A stretch of 32,293 nucleotides of DNA, taken from positions 1 to 32,293 of the IMG/VR virus record IMGVR_UViG_3300022074_000208; one strand, written 5' to 3'. The translations under genes and the position numbers were made by a program. Source of the stretch: a virus. Under the pieces are notes generated by a model. The model was not told where the DNA came from and searched no databases. It saw only the letters and a program-made list of their open reading frames with translations. Positions 14,414-29,129 of this stretch are shown here, one piece after another (position 1 is the stretch's first letter; every line of letters begins with the position of its first letter).

Positions 14414-14553
14414 ATTTCTACTACCATATGTTTGTACCTTGGGATGACTATAACACTGTGTGGGTTTGTCTTTTATTGGTAGTTGTAATTGTTAAAGTAA
14501 ACCAAAGAATACAAAATAATATCAGAAAAAAATACGAATTAGATAATCACTGA
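14407..14553 (+). CDS. Small membrane protein
   Basis: A 48-aa peptide overlapping the end of the previous gene by 7 nt. It has an aromatic N-terminus (VDFYYHMFVPWDDY), one membrane segment (VWVCLLLVVVIVKV) and a basic C-terminus. The stop overlaps the end of the convergent tape-measure gene by 7 nt. A holin-like or spanin-like role is possible from size and position only. Confidence 0.6.
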   Translation: MVDFYYHMFVPWDDYNTVWVCLLLVVVIVKVNQRIQNNIRKKYELDNH

Positions 14554-16517
14554 ACACCTTGAAGTGCTCCAGCGTATGCACCGGCAGGAGCACCATTATC
14601 TGATATACTTTCATTGTTAAAATTACTAGTAGTTTGTTTAACACTCTGGTCTTGTTGATTATAGATTTGATTTATTGTGACATTATTTTGTCTTTGTTCT
14701 TCTGCTTCTCTAATCAACTCTTCCATCTTTTCAATATCACCTTCTTTTCTTGCCTTGAAGAAGTCATCTTGTAATCCTGCTCTTCCCAAATTAACTGTAT
14801 CTCTTGTAGTGGGTTTCGGCCCCTCTATCTCACCAGTATCATAGTTGATACCAGCAAATGAATACACACCTTTTGGAATAGGATTAAAATCACCACCCTT
14901 ACCAGCAAGACCAAAAAATTCAGTCGCTTTGTTAGAGGGTATTTCAAACTTTAGAAAGTCTGGTGATGGTAATATACCACGAAGTAATCTTTTAAAAAAT
15001 CTTGGTGCAAGGTCAGTGATATACCCTTTCAATTCACTCAGACTATCTTTAATACTAAAATTTGTAAATAGAGTAACTATTCCATCTGCTAGTCTTGCAA
15101 TTAATCTAAAAGGTGCCCCAGCTAATGTATTGAATATGTCTTTAAAACTAAATGAGTTGAGAGTTTCTTCTACACCTTCAAATCCCAGTTTTCCTGCTAT
15201 AAATGCAACACCCTTTTTCAATAAATCAAGAGGAAGACCAATTAGATTACCTACAAGTTTTCCTAAAGCACCACCGACACCATCCATAAATTTTGAATAA
15301 ATGTTATTACCCTCTGATTCTGACCAACCATCTATAAACCCAGTAATAAGGTCAAACGCACCAATAACAATTGTTATAGGTAAAAATAATTTACCTAACA
15401 CTGTACCAAAACCTTGTGCAAATGATACTATAGTCTTAATTATGGGGAGTTTACTTGCAATAGTTCCAGCATCTCTTAATCTTCCAATAACATTTGAAAA
15501 TATACCAAATACAGCGTTTGCAACTTTTTTAATTTTTTCACCAACTGTTGCAATAGTTCTAATAAACAAATTTTTAGATAGACCATCTTTTGCAGCTGTA
15601 AAACTAGTTCTGATTTTACCAACTGTGTCACCAATAAATTTAAAGAACGCACCGAAAGGCCCTTTCTCACCAAACAGTTTTCTGAATGGTGGTGCAATTA
15701 CACTACTAATTCTTAACCTTAATCCACGAAACATATTACCTAGAGTTTTGAAAAGAGGCCCAAAATCATTCTTTATTTGTTTTACAAACCCCTTAATAAA
15801 TGCACCAACTACTGCACCAACAACACCCAATGGTAGGAATAATGTATCAAGTGCCTTACTTAAAAACCCACCTCCTGCTTTTGTTGCGTTAACAGCACCT
15901 TTTGCAAGACCTTTAATACCAGCCGCAATATCTTGGAATATGTTAGTTCTTTCTTCCTCTTTTCTTTCTCTTCTTGCAGCTTCTGCTGCTTCTCTAGATT
16001 TAAAAGATTCTGACCTATCAAACTGTTTCTGTTGTTTATCTATTGCTTTCTGATTATTATCAACTATCTTTTCTATAGTGGTAAATTTTTTCTTATCATT
16101 AATAAAACGTCCAGCTGCGAAATTAAAAGTTTTAGTATCAAGACCTAGGAGATTTTCTGCACCCCTTTGAATGTTATCACCAAACTTCTTTTGTGCATCT
16201 GTAACTTTCTTTTGCACTTCTAGTTGTTTAAATTCTCTTTTAGAAATACCAAGTTGTTGTCGTAACAACTCTTTTTCTCGTCTTGCTTTTATTGCAGAAA
16301 ATGTTTTATTAAATAGAGTTTTACCTACTGAACCAAGAGTTCCAACGCCTGGTATCTGTGCAAAGGATTGAGTGAAAGGGTCAAGTACACCTTTCTTTAA
16401 ATCGTTACCAACTGTCTTTGCAATCTCCACACCAGCGGACTGATTGAAATCTCTTAACTGTGCAGTTGCAAGTCTAAGTTCCTTTGCAGATTCTTTTAGG
16501 TTTAAACTCTCTGCCAT
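14547..16517 (-). CDS. Tail tape measure / gp29-like hub protein
   Basis: This 656-aa protein is the longest in the window. It has a helical, charged N-terminal half (ISKREFKQLEVQKKV, KQQKQFDRSESFKSREAAEA) and then many hydrophobic helices rich in Gly and Phe (LPLGVVGAVVGAFIKGF, FLPITIVIGAFDLITGF, LVGNLIGLPLDLL). That pattern is typical of tape measures, which fix tail length and enter the host membrane on injection. It lies directly downstream of gp26/gp51 and an EF-hand protein in the minus-strand tail operon. T4 gp29 is 590 aa. The Gln/Asn-rich end (VTINQIYNQQDQ) may bind the hub. Named by composition and position. Confidence 0.72.
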   Translation of the reverse strand: MAESLNLKESAKELRLATAQLRDFNQSAGVEIAKTVGNDLKKGVLDPFTQSFAQIPGVGTLGSVGKTLFNKTFSAIKARREKELLRQQLGISKREFKQLEVQKKVTDAQKKFGDNIQRGAENLLGLDTKTFNFAAGRFINDKKKFTTIEKIVDNNQKAIDKQQKQFDRSESFKSREAAEAARRERKEEERTNIFQDIAAGIKGLAKGAVNATKAGGGFLSKALDTLFLPLGVVGAVVGAFIKGFVKQIKNDFGPLFKTLGNMFRGLRLRISSVIAPPFRKLFGEKGPFGAFFKFIGDTVGKIRTSFTAAKDGLSKNLFIRTIATVGEKIKKVANAVFGIFSNVIGRLRDAGTIASKLPIIKTIVSFAQGFGTVLGKLFLPITIVIGAFDLITGFIDGWSESEGNNIYSKFMDGVGGALGKLVGNLIGLPLDLLKKGVAFIAGKLGFEGVEETLNSFSFKDIFNTLAGAPFRLIARLADGIVTLFTNFSIKDSLSELKGYITDLAPRFFKRLLRGILPSPDFLKFEIPSNKATEFFGLAGKGGDFNPIPKGVYSFAGINYDTGEIEGPKPTTRDTVNLGRAGLQDDFFKARKEGDIEKMEELIREAEEQRQNNVTINQIYNQQDQSVKQTTSNFNNESISDNGAPAGAYAGALQGVQ

Positions 16518-16518
16518 T

Positions 16519-16854
16519 TTACTTCTTCTTATCTACATATGCGTTTGCACCAAAGTAGGCGGCGACTAACGCTGAGATTGCAACAAAGTATGTCGGTGCA
16601 ATGTCACCAATAATCTTTGCAGTTCCCTCATATCCTAACACAGACGTAATCAAAATTCCTGCTGGATATAATAACATACCCATCAATGCGAACCATGTCA
16701 TCTTTCGCATCGCATCTCTACGAGCATCTGCGTCTTCAAGTTCTTTTCTTTTAAATTCCAAATTCATCTCCATTTCTTCTTGTGAAATGTGACCATCACC
16801 ATTAGTATCAACCTTTTTTGCAACCTCTGGGTCAACAGTTACTTCTACGGCCAT
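16519..16854 (-). CDS. EF-hand membrane protein
   Basis: A 111-aa protein with one complete EF-hand loop near residues 16-27 (DTNGDGHISQEE; Asp, Asn, Asp, Ile and Glu at the calcium positions). A charged helix follows, then two membrane segments, about residues 50-70 (WFALMGMLLYPAGILITSV) and 85-104 (YFVAISALVAAYFGANAYV). The start overlaps the gp51 stop (TAATG), and the stop lies 1 nt before the tape measure ATG. A calcium-binding membrane protein between tail chaperone and tape measure suggests a late role in DNA entry, lysis or calcium sensing; this is inference. Confidence 0.75.
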   Translation of the reverse strand: MAVEVTVDPEVAKKVDTNGDGHISQEEMEMNLEFKRKELEDADARRDAMRKMTWFALMGMLLYPAGILITSVLGYEGTAKIIGDIAPTYFVAISALVAAYFGANAYVDKKK

Positions 16855-16991
16855 TATCGACTCCTCTCTCTTTGTCGTTGTCGTTCCACTTCTTCTTCAA
16901 TATATTGTTTTAATAATCCCAAATATATTTCCCTTTCCCAAGGTATCATATCATCTAATTCTGTCAAACTGTATTTGTAATGTTGCATCAT
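16854..16991 (-). CDS. 51: gp51-like protein, probably made as a -1 frameshift extension of gp26
   Basis: The independent frame encodes 45 aa (MMQHYKYSLTELDDMIPWER, then EIYLGLLKQYIEEEVERQRQRERSR). It resembles the short marine gp51 pattern YSLTExxxMIPxEREIY. There is no ribosome binding site before the ATG pair at 16986-16991. The same frame is open upstream without a start codon (ALSHESLVSYYKSNFSMMQH) back into the end of gp26, where T TTT TTA occurs at 17045-17051. This suggests that most or all of it is translated as a gp26-gp51 fusion. The stop couples to the EF-hand gene. Confidence 0.68.
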   Translation of the reverse strand: MMQHYKYSLTELDDMIPWEREIYLGLLKQYIEEEVERQRQRERSR

Positions 16992-17002
16992 ACTAAAATT
17001 AG

Positions 17003-17051
17003 ACTTGTAATAACTTACAAGACTTTCATGAGAAAGGGCTACACTAAAAAA
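17003..17051 (-). promoter_or_regulatory. Candidate -1 ribosomal frameshift signal
   Basis: In gp26 reading frame the slippery heptamer T TTT TTA (17051 down to 17045) precedes GTG TAG. Eight bases later comes a 5-bp hairpin CTTTC-TCAT-GAAAG (17036-17023), then a 7-bp hairpin CTTGTAA/TTACAAG (17021-17004). A -1 slip gives FFSVALSHES and continues into the gp51-like frame. Confidence 0.62.
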
Positions 17052-17743
17052 CTTTGCATCCCCTCAAGTACAGTTTTATTCATCACTTTTGTATTTGGAT
17101 TTTCATATTCAATTTCATGTCGAAGTTTAGGCATACTATCAAAGAATCCTTGAACACCAGAGAATTGTTCCGTAGTCATGGACTCTACAAATTCTTGTAG
17201 TTCTTTTGGATTCATCTCATCGTAAACACTATTTTCATCAAAAACATTAACAAGACAATCTTGAATAATACCAAATGTTATATCAACATTCGATATATCA
17301 TCTTTTGCATATTTAGCGACATCTTTCATATTGGGATACCTAAACGTCATTCCTATTTTATCTGTTATCATAACAGTGGAATTGTGGTCACCTAATGAAG
17401 ATACCTTAATATCATCAATATTTATTTCGACTGGAACTTGTGTCTTCTCATCATCTGAACACAACATCATCAATTCTACTTTTGCACCAACTGATACTGC
17501 TCTCAATCTCATAAACATATACTCTACGTCAAACGTAGGAAGTTTCATTGCATCATCTATCCCACTAACACAATTTTCAACTAACTGACAAACTGTTCGT
17601 GTCATCATCGCTGGGTCACTTGACTCTTGTGCAATCATAAGTATCTTCTGTTCTTTTACTAAAAAAGGACGATAAGTTACTTTTTCTTGTGTGGAAGGTA
17701 CAACCAGTTCATATGTTGGGTTGTTCAACTTTGGTAAAGCCAT
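17039..17743 (-). CDS. 26: gp26-like baseplate hub / tail assembly protein
   Basis: A 234-aa protein (T4 gp26: 208 aa) of the T4 baseplate protein family. Seen: ALPKLNNPTYELVVPSTQEKVTYRPFLVKEQKILM at the start, VEYMFMRLRAVSVGAKVEL in the middle and an acidic C-terminal region. In T4 it is needed for hub assembly. Directly upstream of the tape measure and followed by an overlapping -1 frame, it occupies the place of the G/GT tail chaperones of other phages. A clear AGGAGA site lies before the ATG. Confidence 0.85.
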   Translation of the reverse strand: MALPKLNNPTYELVVPSTQEKVTYRPFLVKEQKILMIAQESSDPAMMTRTVCQLVENCVSGIDDAMKLPTFDVEYMFMRLRAVSVGAKVELMMLCSDDEKTQVPVEINIDDIKVSSLGDHNSTVMITDKIGMTFRYPNMKDVAKYAKDDISNVDITFGIIQDCLVNVFDENSVYDEMNPKELQEFVESMTTEQFSGVQGFFDSMPKLRHEIEYENPNTKVMNKTVLEGMQSFLV

Positions 17744-17764: not shown

Positions 17765-18493
17765 TTAAAATAATCGCCTCAAAACACTTGGAATTCTTGT
17801 TTGTACTTGTCGTAAAATTGAATTCGCTAGAACATCTTGAAGTTTACCTTCTAGACTCTCTTTCTTTTCATCAGTCGCAATATTTTCCCAATTTCTATAC
17901 ATAAAACCGACTGTAATTTTATTTATTGCATTATTAGTACCATGTGAATAATCAATCTGGGAAATGGTTTTAGGGAACACTTCAAGTAAACGACAACCAT
18001 ATGTTCTTTCATCTTGTTCGTTTAATTGGTATATTTCTAGTCTACCAACATATTCTTTATAATAATTTATATTATATGTTGATGGGTTATATGTGGTTTT
18101 TTGCCATTCTTCAAAGAAGTATCTCTCTCCTAAGTCATTACCAAGGTAAAAAGTTGCTTGTAGTTCACCAAATGTAATCCCTTGTACTATCTCATGAGGA
18201 GGGCCGTATATATTACCATTTACTTGTGTTCTTAGGTTTCTGCCTGGTATAGAAATAGAGTCACATCTAAAAGATACTCTTCTTGCAGCTTCACTACTTT
18301 TAAGACCTTTTACATTGGTCGCAGATTCACCAGCGACATCTGAGGGAACAGCTGCACCAGCTGGTAAATAAATCATAACTTCATATCTGTTGGGTTTGGA
18401 ATATCCATCTCTTGATGCATTATGTGATAGGAACGCATTTAGGCTTCCAAAAGCCGCACCACCCAAAACATTTGAAAAATTAAATTTTGACAT
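17765..18493 (-). CDS. Tail-tube-fold protein, probable gp54-like tube initiator
   Basis: 242 aa. The central part has the layout of tail tube (gp19/gp54) proteins: KPNRYEVMIYLPAG, RVSFRCDSISIPGRNL, PPHEIVQGITFGELQATFYL, ERYFFEEWQKTTYNP, RLLEVFPKTISQIDYSH and ITVGFMYRNWE. A shorter Gly/Ala-rich N-terminus and a helical C-terminus flank it. T4 gp54 (320 aa) starts tube assembly on the baseplate; gp19 is the tube itself. Its place beside gp26 and near gp48 favours gp54. The true gp19 could look alike. Confidence 0.68.
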   Translation of the reverse strand: MSKFNFSNVLGGAAFGSLNAFLSHNASRDGYSKPNRYEVMIYLPAGAAVPSDVAGESATNVKGLKSSEAARRVSFRCDSISIPGRNLRTQVNGNIYGPPHEIVQGITFGELQATFYLGNDLGERYFFEEWQKTTYNPSTYNINYYKEYVGRLEIYQLNEQDERTYGCRLLEVFPKTISQIDYSHGTNNAINKITVGFMYRNWENIATDEKKESLEGKLQDVLANSILRQVQTRIPSVLRRLF

Positions 18494-19014
18494 TAAATCA
18501 TCTTCCTTGAATTACCCCAGACTGTATTATCTGATGCTTTCTTAAATCGTTGTACTGGTAACATAATCGCAGTTAAGTTATCCTCTGGTTCTATTTTTAA
18601 ACACATCGACCTCAAATATCCAAACAAATACCTTTTAATTGTTGGTTTTGTTAACCTACTCTTAATAACCTCATTCACATTTAATTTATCTTGACCAGCA
18701 GCATCTAGTAATCTCGCTCTTAACGCATATGGTAAATAGTGAAAATTCAATCCATAGAAACCTTTCTCTGCTGGTTTCAAGTACATAATCAATGGAAATG
18801 TATCATAATATGGTAACGTGTCTTTAAACTTTGGTGCGTATATGTACATATTTAGAAATCCCTCATGAGGACGTTTCGCAAGTTTTCCAGAACGTAGAAG
18901 TTCTGCCGTACTAGGAGTTCCTAATTCCTTAATACGATTACGATACCATCTAAAGGGTTCGTTTCCAGTTTTTATTTGTTTTGATATTCTATCGAAATAT
19001 GTTTCTTCTGCCAT
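18493..19014 (-). CDS. Conserved T4-like tail-region protein, unknown function
   Basis: 173 aa from the ATG at 19014, which overlaps the stop of the MIP18-like gene (TAATG). Highly patterned segments: FRWYRNRIKELG, LNMYIYAPKFKDTLPYYDTFPLIMY and FYGLNFHYLPYALRARLL. I know this pattern from many T4-like phages without an assigned function. It is basic and aromatic, which fits a structural or assembly protein. It is translated between the MIP18-like protein and the tube-like protein, so it is late. Confidence 0.65.
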   Translation of the reverse strand: MAEETYFDRISKQIKTGNEPFRWYRNRIKELGTPSTAELLRSGKLAKRPHEGFLNMYIYAPKFKDTLPYYDTFPLIMYLKPAEKGFYGLNFHYLPYALRARLLDAAGQDKLNVNEVIKSRLTKPTIKRYLFGYLRSMCLKIEPEDNLTAIMLPVQRFKKASDNTVWGNSRKMI

Positions 19015-19334
19015 TATAACCAACCCATTGCAAGTTTTGTTTCTTCAGGCACCATGTCCATACTGAATGGTGGAGAGAATGTACAATTAACTATACAATC
19101 TTCTGCACCAGTGTTGTTAAGTCCTGCCTGTTTAATATTGTTACTAATTTCATCAGCCATAGGACAGAACGCACTTGTTAATGTGTGTGTTATAGTAACA
19201 ACCTTTTTGACTATTTCTATATCGTATATCAGTCCAAGGTGTAAAACAGAAACACTAGGTATCTCTGGGTCATAAACCTTTTCTAAATTTTGAACAACTT
19301 TTTGTGTCATATCATTTATTTCTTCTGATGTCAT
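19014..19334 (-). CDS. MIP18/DUF59 (PaaD/SufT-like) iron-sulfur assembly protein
   Basis: The 106-aa protein matches the MIP18 (FeS_assembly_P, DUF59) domain: KVYDPEIPSVSVLHLGLIYDIEI, then VTITHTLTSAFCPMADEI with the conserved Cys, and CTFSPPFSMDMV near the end. Cellular members help to mature iron-sulfur proteins. Here the gene is embedded in a tail operon between gp4 and an unknown tail-region gene, which suggests a link to a phage structural protein holding iron or a cluster, or metabolic support late in infection. A TATAAATA lies 5 nt before the ATG at 19334, so translation may start at the second Met (19310). Confidence 0.8.
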   Translation of the reverse strand: MTSEEINDMTQKVVQNLEKVYDPEIPSVSVLHLGLIYDIEIVKKVVTITHTLTSAFCPMADEISNNIKQAGLNNTGAEDCIVNCTFSPPFSMDMVPEETKLAMGWL

Positions 19335-19339
19335 GTAAA

Positions 19340-19347
19340 TATTTATA
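19340..19347 (-). promoter_or_regulatory. Possible late promoter inside the gp4 end
   Basis: TATAAATA on the minus strand, overlapping the end of gp4. RNA would begin near 19334, so the first ATG of the MIP18-like gene would be leaderless and a downstream Met might be used. The match could be chance in AT-rich DNA. Confidence 0.4.
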
Positions 19348-19774
19348 CACCAAGTTCATCTTCTGTTATGATGATAAACTCCATGTCTCTATCCTTACAA
19401 TACTCTGTTGCATTTTTCCACTTTGCATCATTAACTGCATATGTACGAACTTCTGTTATATATCTTGATGTTTTTCTTTTAGGTGTCTTTGGTGGTCTGG
19501 TCTGGGCCTTTGGTTTGACTTCAACTATCCATTTCTTCAGACCCTTTGGTGTTTTAACTTTTACATAGAAGTCTGGGAAGTATCTGTGTATCTTACCATC
19601 AAGTGGAGAACGATAGGGTATGAAAAACTCTTCAGAACCCCATTCTACTATTTTTTCGTTTCGGTCACAATATACCATGAACTTCCTCTCCCACAAAGAA
19701 CGATAAATAATATTCGAAGGGTCACCTTTGTATTTTTTAGTGTTTGAAGGAAAGTATTTTCCACGATATGCCAT
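19343..19774 (-). CDS. 4: gp4-like head completion nuclease
   Basis: A 143-aa homologue of T4 gp4 (150 aa). Shared segments: AYRGKYFPSNTKKYKGDPSNIIYRSLWERKF, VEWGSEEFFIPYRSP, RRYFPDF-type strand (here HRYFPDFYVKV), WIVEVKPKAQTRPP and TEVRTYAVNDAKW. PDF followed by EVK is a PD-(D/E)XK catalytic set, in line with nuclease activity reported for this family. It completes the packaged head before the tail joins. A late motif lies 28 nt upstream. It is the first gene of the minus-strand block. Confidence 0.92.
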   Translation of the reverse strand: MAYRGKYFPSNTKKYKGDPSNIIYRSLWERKFMVYCDRNEKIVEWGSEEFFIPYRSPLDGKIHRYFPDFYVKVKTPKGLKKWIVEVKPKAQTRPPKTPKRKTSRYITEVRTYAVNDAKWKNATEYCKDRDMEFIIITEDELGV

Positions 19775-28454: not shown

Positions 28455-28693
28455 TGAGTGGTTCAATCAATACACCACTCAGACAATTGATTATGGATTG
28501 GACTGCGTGTCAATTATTAGAGAAAGACCCAGACAATCACATACTCAAGAAACTCCGTACATGGGAACACCCAGAGACAATAGAGTTAAATAAATTGTTG
28601 AGTAAATTTGAGAAAGATGGTAAGTACCCAGAACATTATAATTTAGATTGGGGTACAATCACATACGAAGATTTTATGAAAGATGGAGAATAA
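28454..28693 (+). CDS. Hypothetical soluble phage protein
   Basis: 79 aa from the ATG at 28454 with GGAGAG upstream. Helical with aromatic residues: LRQLIMDWTACQLLEKDPDNH, KKLRTWEHPETIELNKLLSKFEKDG, then YPEHYNLDWGTITYEDF. It overlaps the DoxX-like gene by 11 nt. Not recognised. Confidence 0.58.
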   Translation: MSGSINTPLRQLIMDWTACQLLEKDPDNHILKKLRTWEHPETIELNKLLSKFEKDGKYPEHYNLDWGTITYEDFMKDGE

Positions 28694-29129
28694 AGTGAAT
28701 ATATTGAGTAAATTAAAAATGCCTGATTTTTGTTTGTCACATTGGTTGTTACGAATACCACTTGCAATCGTGTTTATACAACAAGGATTAATGAAAATAC
28801 CAGTAGACATAGAAGAGGCGTCTTCCTATGGGCTATCATACTTGGTTTGGTGGTTTGTTGCATATGGAGAACTATTAGGGGGTATCGGACTTATTATTGG
28901 TGGTCTGTTGAATAGACCCTATCTACCAATATTGGAAAGGTGTTATATTCCAGACATAGGAGATGCAATTACACGTTTTAGTGGTATTACATTATGTTGC
29001 ATTATGACTGGTGTTATCTGGATAGGAGAACCAGAGTCTTTCATGGACGTAATACTTTATGATAATCTTCATGTGTTTCTCTGGGTAGGTGGACTTATAT
29101 TTGCACTAAGGGGGAATCGTTTAACATGA
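28683..29129 (+). CDS. DoxX-like membrane protein
   Basis: A 148-aa protein with four predicted membrane segments: about 22-40 (LLRIPLAIVFIQQGLMKI), 55-80 (WFVAYGELLGGIGLIIGGLL), 98-114 (GITLCCIMTGVIWIG) and 128-143 (HVFLWVGGLIFALRG). The LRIPLAIVFIQQGLMKIP start and the GELLGGIGLIIGGLL Gly-rich second helix are the DoxX pattern. Cellular DoxX-like proteins are linked to quinone or redox chemistry. A phage copy could change host respiration, which is inference. Confidence 0.68.
   Translation: MENKVNILSKLKMPDFCLSHWLLRIPLAIVFIQQGLMKIPVDIEEASSYGLSYLVWWFVAYGELLGGIGLIIGGLLNRPYLPILERCYIPDIGDAITRFSGITLCCIMTGVIWIGEPESFMDVILYDNLHVFLWVGGLIFALRGNRLT

Follow-up and report, generated by a model that had tools for sequence, protein, structure and literature searches.

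The locus described here raises the question of whether gp26 and the gp51-like reading frame behind it are two separate genes, or whether they are joined during translation. The sequence studied, called the window below, is the whole stretch of 32,293 nucleotides of IMG/VR virus record IMGVR_UViG_3300022074_000208 (positions 1-32,293), and all features of the junction lie on its minus strand. The upstream frame (17743..17039) encodes gp26, a protein of 234 aa that matches PF12322 (T4_baseplate, E 2.9e-58) and phrog_150 (baseplate hub, E 3.8e-60) and is a candidate for a short, G-like tail assembly chaperone (TAC-N). Its 3' end reads GAG GGG ATG CAA AGT TTT TTA GTG TAG. Thus, the heptamer T TTT TTA is found in the gp26 register at 17051..17045, where it had been predicted, and a single sense codon (GTG) lies between it and the stop codon TAG (17041..17039). 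An 8-nt spacer of the predicted length, GTGTAGCC, leads from the heptamer to hairpin 1 (CTTTC TCAT GAAAG, 17036..17023, stems 17036..17032 and 17027..17023), which is followed by hairpin 2 (CTTGTAA GTTA TTACAAG, 17021..17004, stems 17021..17015 and 17010..17004).

The open part of the -1 frame extends from 17063 to 16854, with its stop at 16856..16854, and it reads FFSVALSHESLVSYYKSNFSMMQ... No ATG, GTG or TTG occurs in this frame from 17063 until a Met pair, ATG ATG, at 16991..16986, which is 54 nt past the heptamer and has no SD (anti-SD energy -0.2 kcal/mol). The frame encodes a gp51-like C-terminal (T-like) domain, since it matches phrog_634 ("baseplate hub assembly catalyst") with E 8.7e-25. 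In all of these points the original prediction, which was made from the letters of this DNA, was borne out. A frameshift product would use 17045..16854 of the -1 frame and would be a protein of 296 aa (17743..16854), a putative long, GT-like tail assembly chaperone (TAC-NC). When this fusion was used as a query against phage records, two-piece matches to gp26 plus gp51 were obtained in many of them, and a single place covering at least 80% of the query was found in 602 records. A single TTTTTTA site proves nothing by itself, because the heptamer is common in this AT-rich window (21 observed, 26 expected), and its conservation must decide.

A first IMG/VR scan, for which gp26 was the query, retrieved 79 loci in which the junction is complete (43-92% identity), and its seeds ended at least 15 codons upstream of the junction. 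All 79 relatives have T TTT TT(A/G/C) at the identical place, with the stop one codon on and the -1 frame open behind it. A second scan was partly seeded on the junction-adjacent peptide LEG..SF, a choice that enriches for these amino acids without any preference for their codons. The two scans and annotated isolates together make up a wider set of 183 gp26 genes, 102 of them non-redundant. A comparison of junctions among relatives had been proposed as a check, and it did reveal a conserved slip site: T TTT TTN lies 0-1 codons before the stop in 176 of the 183 genes, including those of the Kyanoviridae type, KVP40, Pootjesviridae, phages Moby, DLP6 and phiAS5, and Desulfovibrio 7757. The codon preceding the slip site ends in T in all 102 non-redundant genes, with a varying amino acid (S, A, N, D or T), and in-frame T TTT TT was found elsewhere in the same genes at 12 of 23,023 codon positions. 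For the amino acids encoded at the slip site, the joint probability of the codon choices comes to about 10^-42, a value that is overstated since it assumes that the 102 genes are independent. As the relatives share ancestry, none of these sequence counts is a number of independent events. The canonical heptamer is missing in the remaining seven genes, which belong to four Ackermannviridae, Vibrio K452 and K357, and Pseudomonas Cygsa01. They keep the -1 arrangement of gp26 and gp51, with xTT TTC or CTT TTT at the same place, and such sites would allow single-tRNA slippage at most. Among phages of this kind, PM10 of Salmonella and UPM 2146 of Klebsiella have no ATG near the junction, and gp51 is unannotated there.

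Coding constraint was analyzed between the gp26 stop and the first Met of the -1 frame, with 32 sequences in which the first 17 codons of this frame include no start (276 pairs). The pN/pS of the start-less stretch was 0.24 in the -1 frame, and that of the rest of gp51 was 0.23. The same DNA gave 1.48 and 1.23 in the other two frames. Judged by these ratios, the start-less stretch is evidently under purifying selection at the protein level in the -1 frame, and this frame, which overlaps gp26 in the -1 phase, is conserved as coding sequence. Because there is no start codon in the stretch, ribosomes should enter it only via gp26.

These results bear on the foremost alternative, namely that gp51 is a separate small gene made without any frameshift. 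Its translation would then start at the Met pair (16991) or, for relatives, by termination-reinitiation on an ATG that closely follows the gp26 stop. A start of its own is absent in the window and near relatives. In the wider non-redundant set, the -1 frame contains an ATG within 8 codons in about 70% of the genes, in some cases as TAATG or TGATG, and in many relatives it lies 3-8 codons past the slip site. Public records annotate gp51 from such ATG starts, and the relatives that bear them could additionally make gp51 by separate initiation. However, no start occurs for about 20 codons in the window and its near relatives, and yet these codons are as constrained as the rest of gp51. Moreover, the first ATG of the -1 frame is as a rule without an SD in both groups (medians of 0.3 and -0.2 kcal/mol, with exceptions in 5 of 86), and the heptamer is retained even in relatives with an ATG. 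The pattern that the original prediction had named as speaking against it, a separate gp51 start with a good ribosome site and no slippery heptamer, is therefore not what the relatives carry, and we consider separate initiation as the general explanation to be improbable.

Part of the proposed signal lies upstream. The junction as first predicted was right in its heptamer, but the SD-like sequence GAGGGG at 17065..17060, 8 nt 5' of the heptamer, was overlooked. Its anti-SD pairing is -8.2 kcal/mol, and it is proposed to be a frameshift stimulator of the dnaX type. An SD-like element is located 7-9 nt 5' of the heptamer in 101 of the 102 non-redundant genes. Anti-SD pairing of the element averages -7.8 kcal/mol in the 102 relatives, with a median rank in the top 0.7% of gp26 positions, and few sites in the gp26 message pair more strongly with the tail of the 16S rRNA. 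It is also stronger than the ribosome site of gp26 itself (anti-SD medians of -7.4 and -7.9 versus -5.4 and -3.0). Codon usage at the element is biased, with GAG for Glu in 83% versus 31% elsewhere, and GGA or GGG for Gly in 75% versus 43% elsewhere. By analogy with dnaX, this element would stimulate the frameshift.

The stems of both predicted hairpins are present in the window, but they are not conserved across relatives. The stem of hairpin 1 is swapped with compensation to GCTGTC/GACAGC in one sister lineage, in which folding is about 4 standard deviations more stable than that of synonymous shuffles. The mean z of downstream folding against synonymous shuffles is -1.8, with about -4 in one sublineage and no effect in others. 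Apart from the one compensated sublineage, hairpin 1 is broken or absent, and it was rejected as a general element. Hairpin 2 was rejected as a conserved element, as its full 7/7 pairing exists solely in the window among 32 sequences, and it is probably incidental. The hairpins are at most lineage-specific aids, and hairpin 1 may act as an optional stimulator in the present lineage.

The upstream element and the T run also bear on the possibility that RNA polymerase slips on the T6 run and adds or loses a base, so that some mRNAs join both frames. A homopolymer run does occur at the junction in 102 of 102 genes. However, this run is exactly six in 101 of them and is never lengthened, whereas transcriptional slippage sites usually have extended runs. 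Also conserved are the register of the codons and the distance between heptamer and SD-like element, both of which matter to ribosomes only, and this makes slippage of the polymerase very improbable. That a sequencing error joins the frames, or that they are chance neighbours, is scarcely credible even though homopolymers are error-prone, for the same arrangement is present in 176 relatives including sequenced isolates. It is thus a programmed -1 ribosomal frameshift that very probably joins gp26 and gp51 in the tail assembly chaperone gene of this marine T4-like phage, and it is the best explanation because the slip heptamer is conserved, the start-less stretch is constrained as coding sequence, and the upstream SD-like element is conserved.

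Under this programmed frameshift, most ribosomes that translate gp26 would terminate at UAG and give the 234-aa, G-like chaperone. At U UUU UUA, the tRNAs in the P- and A-sites would slip back by one base in some of the passages. Slippage is probably aided by pairing of the 16S rRNA tail with GAGGGG just upstream, and probably also, in this lineage, by the short hairpin downstream. The slipped ribosomes would continue in the -1 frame and produce the 296-aa, GT-like protein that ends in the gp51 domain. The tape measure protein would presumably be coated with the 234-aa form and connected through the 296-aa form to the subunits of the tail tube, as it is by the short and long chaperones of lambda.

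The gene neighbourhood is consistent with such a function. The chaperone locus is situated between a gene for a tail tube-type protein upstream (18493..17765, minus strand; phrog_45 tail tube, E 5.5e-35) and that for a presumed tape measure protein of 656 aa downstream (16517..14547, minus strand), which was assigned from its position, two hydrophobic stretches and a weak match to a tape measure family (E 0.013). The locus had been predicted to lie directly upstream of the tape measure gene; the order was right, but a gene for a 111-aa protein (16854..16519, minus strand) intervenes. The ATG of this gene overlaps the stop of the -1 frame as TAATG. The protein has hydrophobic segments and an EF-hand-like DTNGDGHISQEE loop (EF-hand_5, E 1.3e-4, below the curated cut-off), its gene is located behind gp51 in 10 of the 11 relatives compared, including phage Melnitz, and all 6 related records that were searched contain a match. 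A membrane role in the tail or in lysis is a guess. Inside the tail/neck cluster, there is also a gene for a SufT/PaaD-type iron-sulfur assembly protein (19334..19014, minus strand; PF01883 E 1.1e-11; TIGR02945 E 1.5e-23, below the curated cut-off). The head closure (gp4-type) protein (19774..19343, minus strand; phrog_218 E 7.6e-63) has a TnsA-like endonuclease domain at its N-terminus (PF08722 E 1.2e-22), and the phage genome carries a gene for a DoxX-family membrane protein (28683..29129, plus strand; PF07681 E 2.3e-08).

Comparison of the gp26 AlphaFold model (pLDDT 87.5) with the PDB placed the HK97 chaperone 2ob9 among the best probabilities. The match is weak (probability 0.25, E 1.8, TM 0.43 on the target), and this modelled similarity is only a hint. 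gp26 had no significant match to the PDB by sequence, and none of gp26, the fusion product and the presumed tape measure protein matched an NCBIfam family. By analogy with lambda, gp26 and the fusion would assist tail assembly as chaperones of the tape measure protein.

The original prediction also regarded gp26 and gp51 of T4 as the equivalents of G and T. Both T4 proteins match PF12322 (gp26 E 8.8e-64, gp51 E 3.9e-52) and, from these matches, are evidently paralogues. T4 gp51 alone carries an extra C-terminal domain (phrog_634, E 1.2e-23), and its C-terminus is homologous to the product of the -1 frame (hhalign probability 96.5%, E 7.6e-10). By homology, then, T4 gp51 corresponds to the entire GT fusion, that is, the gp26 domain plus the T-like C-terminus, and not to T alone. 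The comparison with G and GT is therefore upheld and that of gp51 with T is not, and the equivalence had already been published. The junction evidence, together with the correspondence of gp51 to the whole fusion, leads to a tail-chaperone frameshift of the lambda G/GT type. Such a frameshift would explain an oddity reported for cyanophages (Sullivan et al., 2010; PMC3037559), whose gp51 has only about 20% of the length known from other T4-like phages and misses its first ~200 residues: the missing residues would be supplied by gp26. It would also qualify the statement in a review that long-tailed phages "except T4" share a conserved tail chaperone frameshift (PMC5009743), as the marine relatives of T4 appear to keep it. 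Many deposited genomes have gp51 annotated as a separate gene or omitted, and these annotations can now be corrected.

Vladimirov, Gautam and Davidson (Virology 2022, 566:9-15) reportedly showed which proteins of T4-like phages are the tail assembly chaperones, in a paper whose title is said to name a mechanism other than frameshifting. In the passages concerned, the PRFect paper cites Vladimirov et al. (2022) for T4-like phages with a short gene and a long fused gene (PMC10885494), and the Adele paper cites them for poly-T slip signals in T4-like chaperone genes (PMC12846349). Because these citing passages give them the credit, neither the kind of system nor its equivalence in T4 can be counted as new. 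No paper describing a gp26/gp51 frameshift in cyanophages was found among the open-access papers searched. Judged by these papers, three things are new: how widely the slip site is conserved, the test for selection on the stretch without a start codon, and the conservation of an SD-like element upstream.

Among known systems, lambda gpG/gpGT is encoded by overlapping frames between the tail tube and tape measure genes, with -1 slippage near the end of the first frame (PMC5009743). The present locus has the overlapping frames, the gene position, the -1 slippage and the short and long products in common with lambda. It differs in the PF12322 family, in a T TTT TTN site instead of the lambda heptamer, in the conserved upstream SD-like element, and in one additional gene before the presumed tape measure gene. 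The -1 signal of E. coli dnaX consists of an SD-like sequence about 10 nt upstream of the slippery heptamer and a hairpin downstream. The same order of elements is seen here, at the conserved spacing of 7-9 nt, but dnaX slips on A AAA AAG with a strong, conserved stem, whereas the stem here is weak and lineage-specific. The tail chaperone gene of Vandenendeviridae and Andersonviridae has a GTTTTT frameshift site. As here, a poly-T run near the 3' end of the short chaperone gene serves as the proposed slip site, and the -1 frame is uninterrupted; these are other phage families, and the relevant passages mention no SD-like element (PMC12846349). In T4, the gp26 domain is homologous over its full length, and the same two domains are fused in gp51. 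However, the short and long forms of T4 come from two divergently transcribed genes, gp51 being an in-frame fusion for which no frameshift is needed, whereas here both would come from one gene. There is perhaps an even chance that the chaperone frameshift of marine T4-like phages is driven by a dnaX-like internal SD stronger than the start site of the gene itself, that this frameshift is ancestral in T4-like phages, and that T-even phages swapped it for a gene duplication in which one copy fuses both frames.
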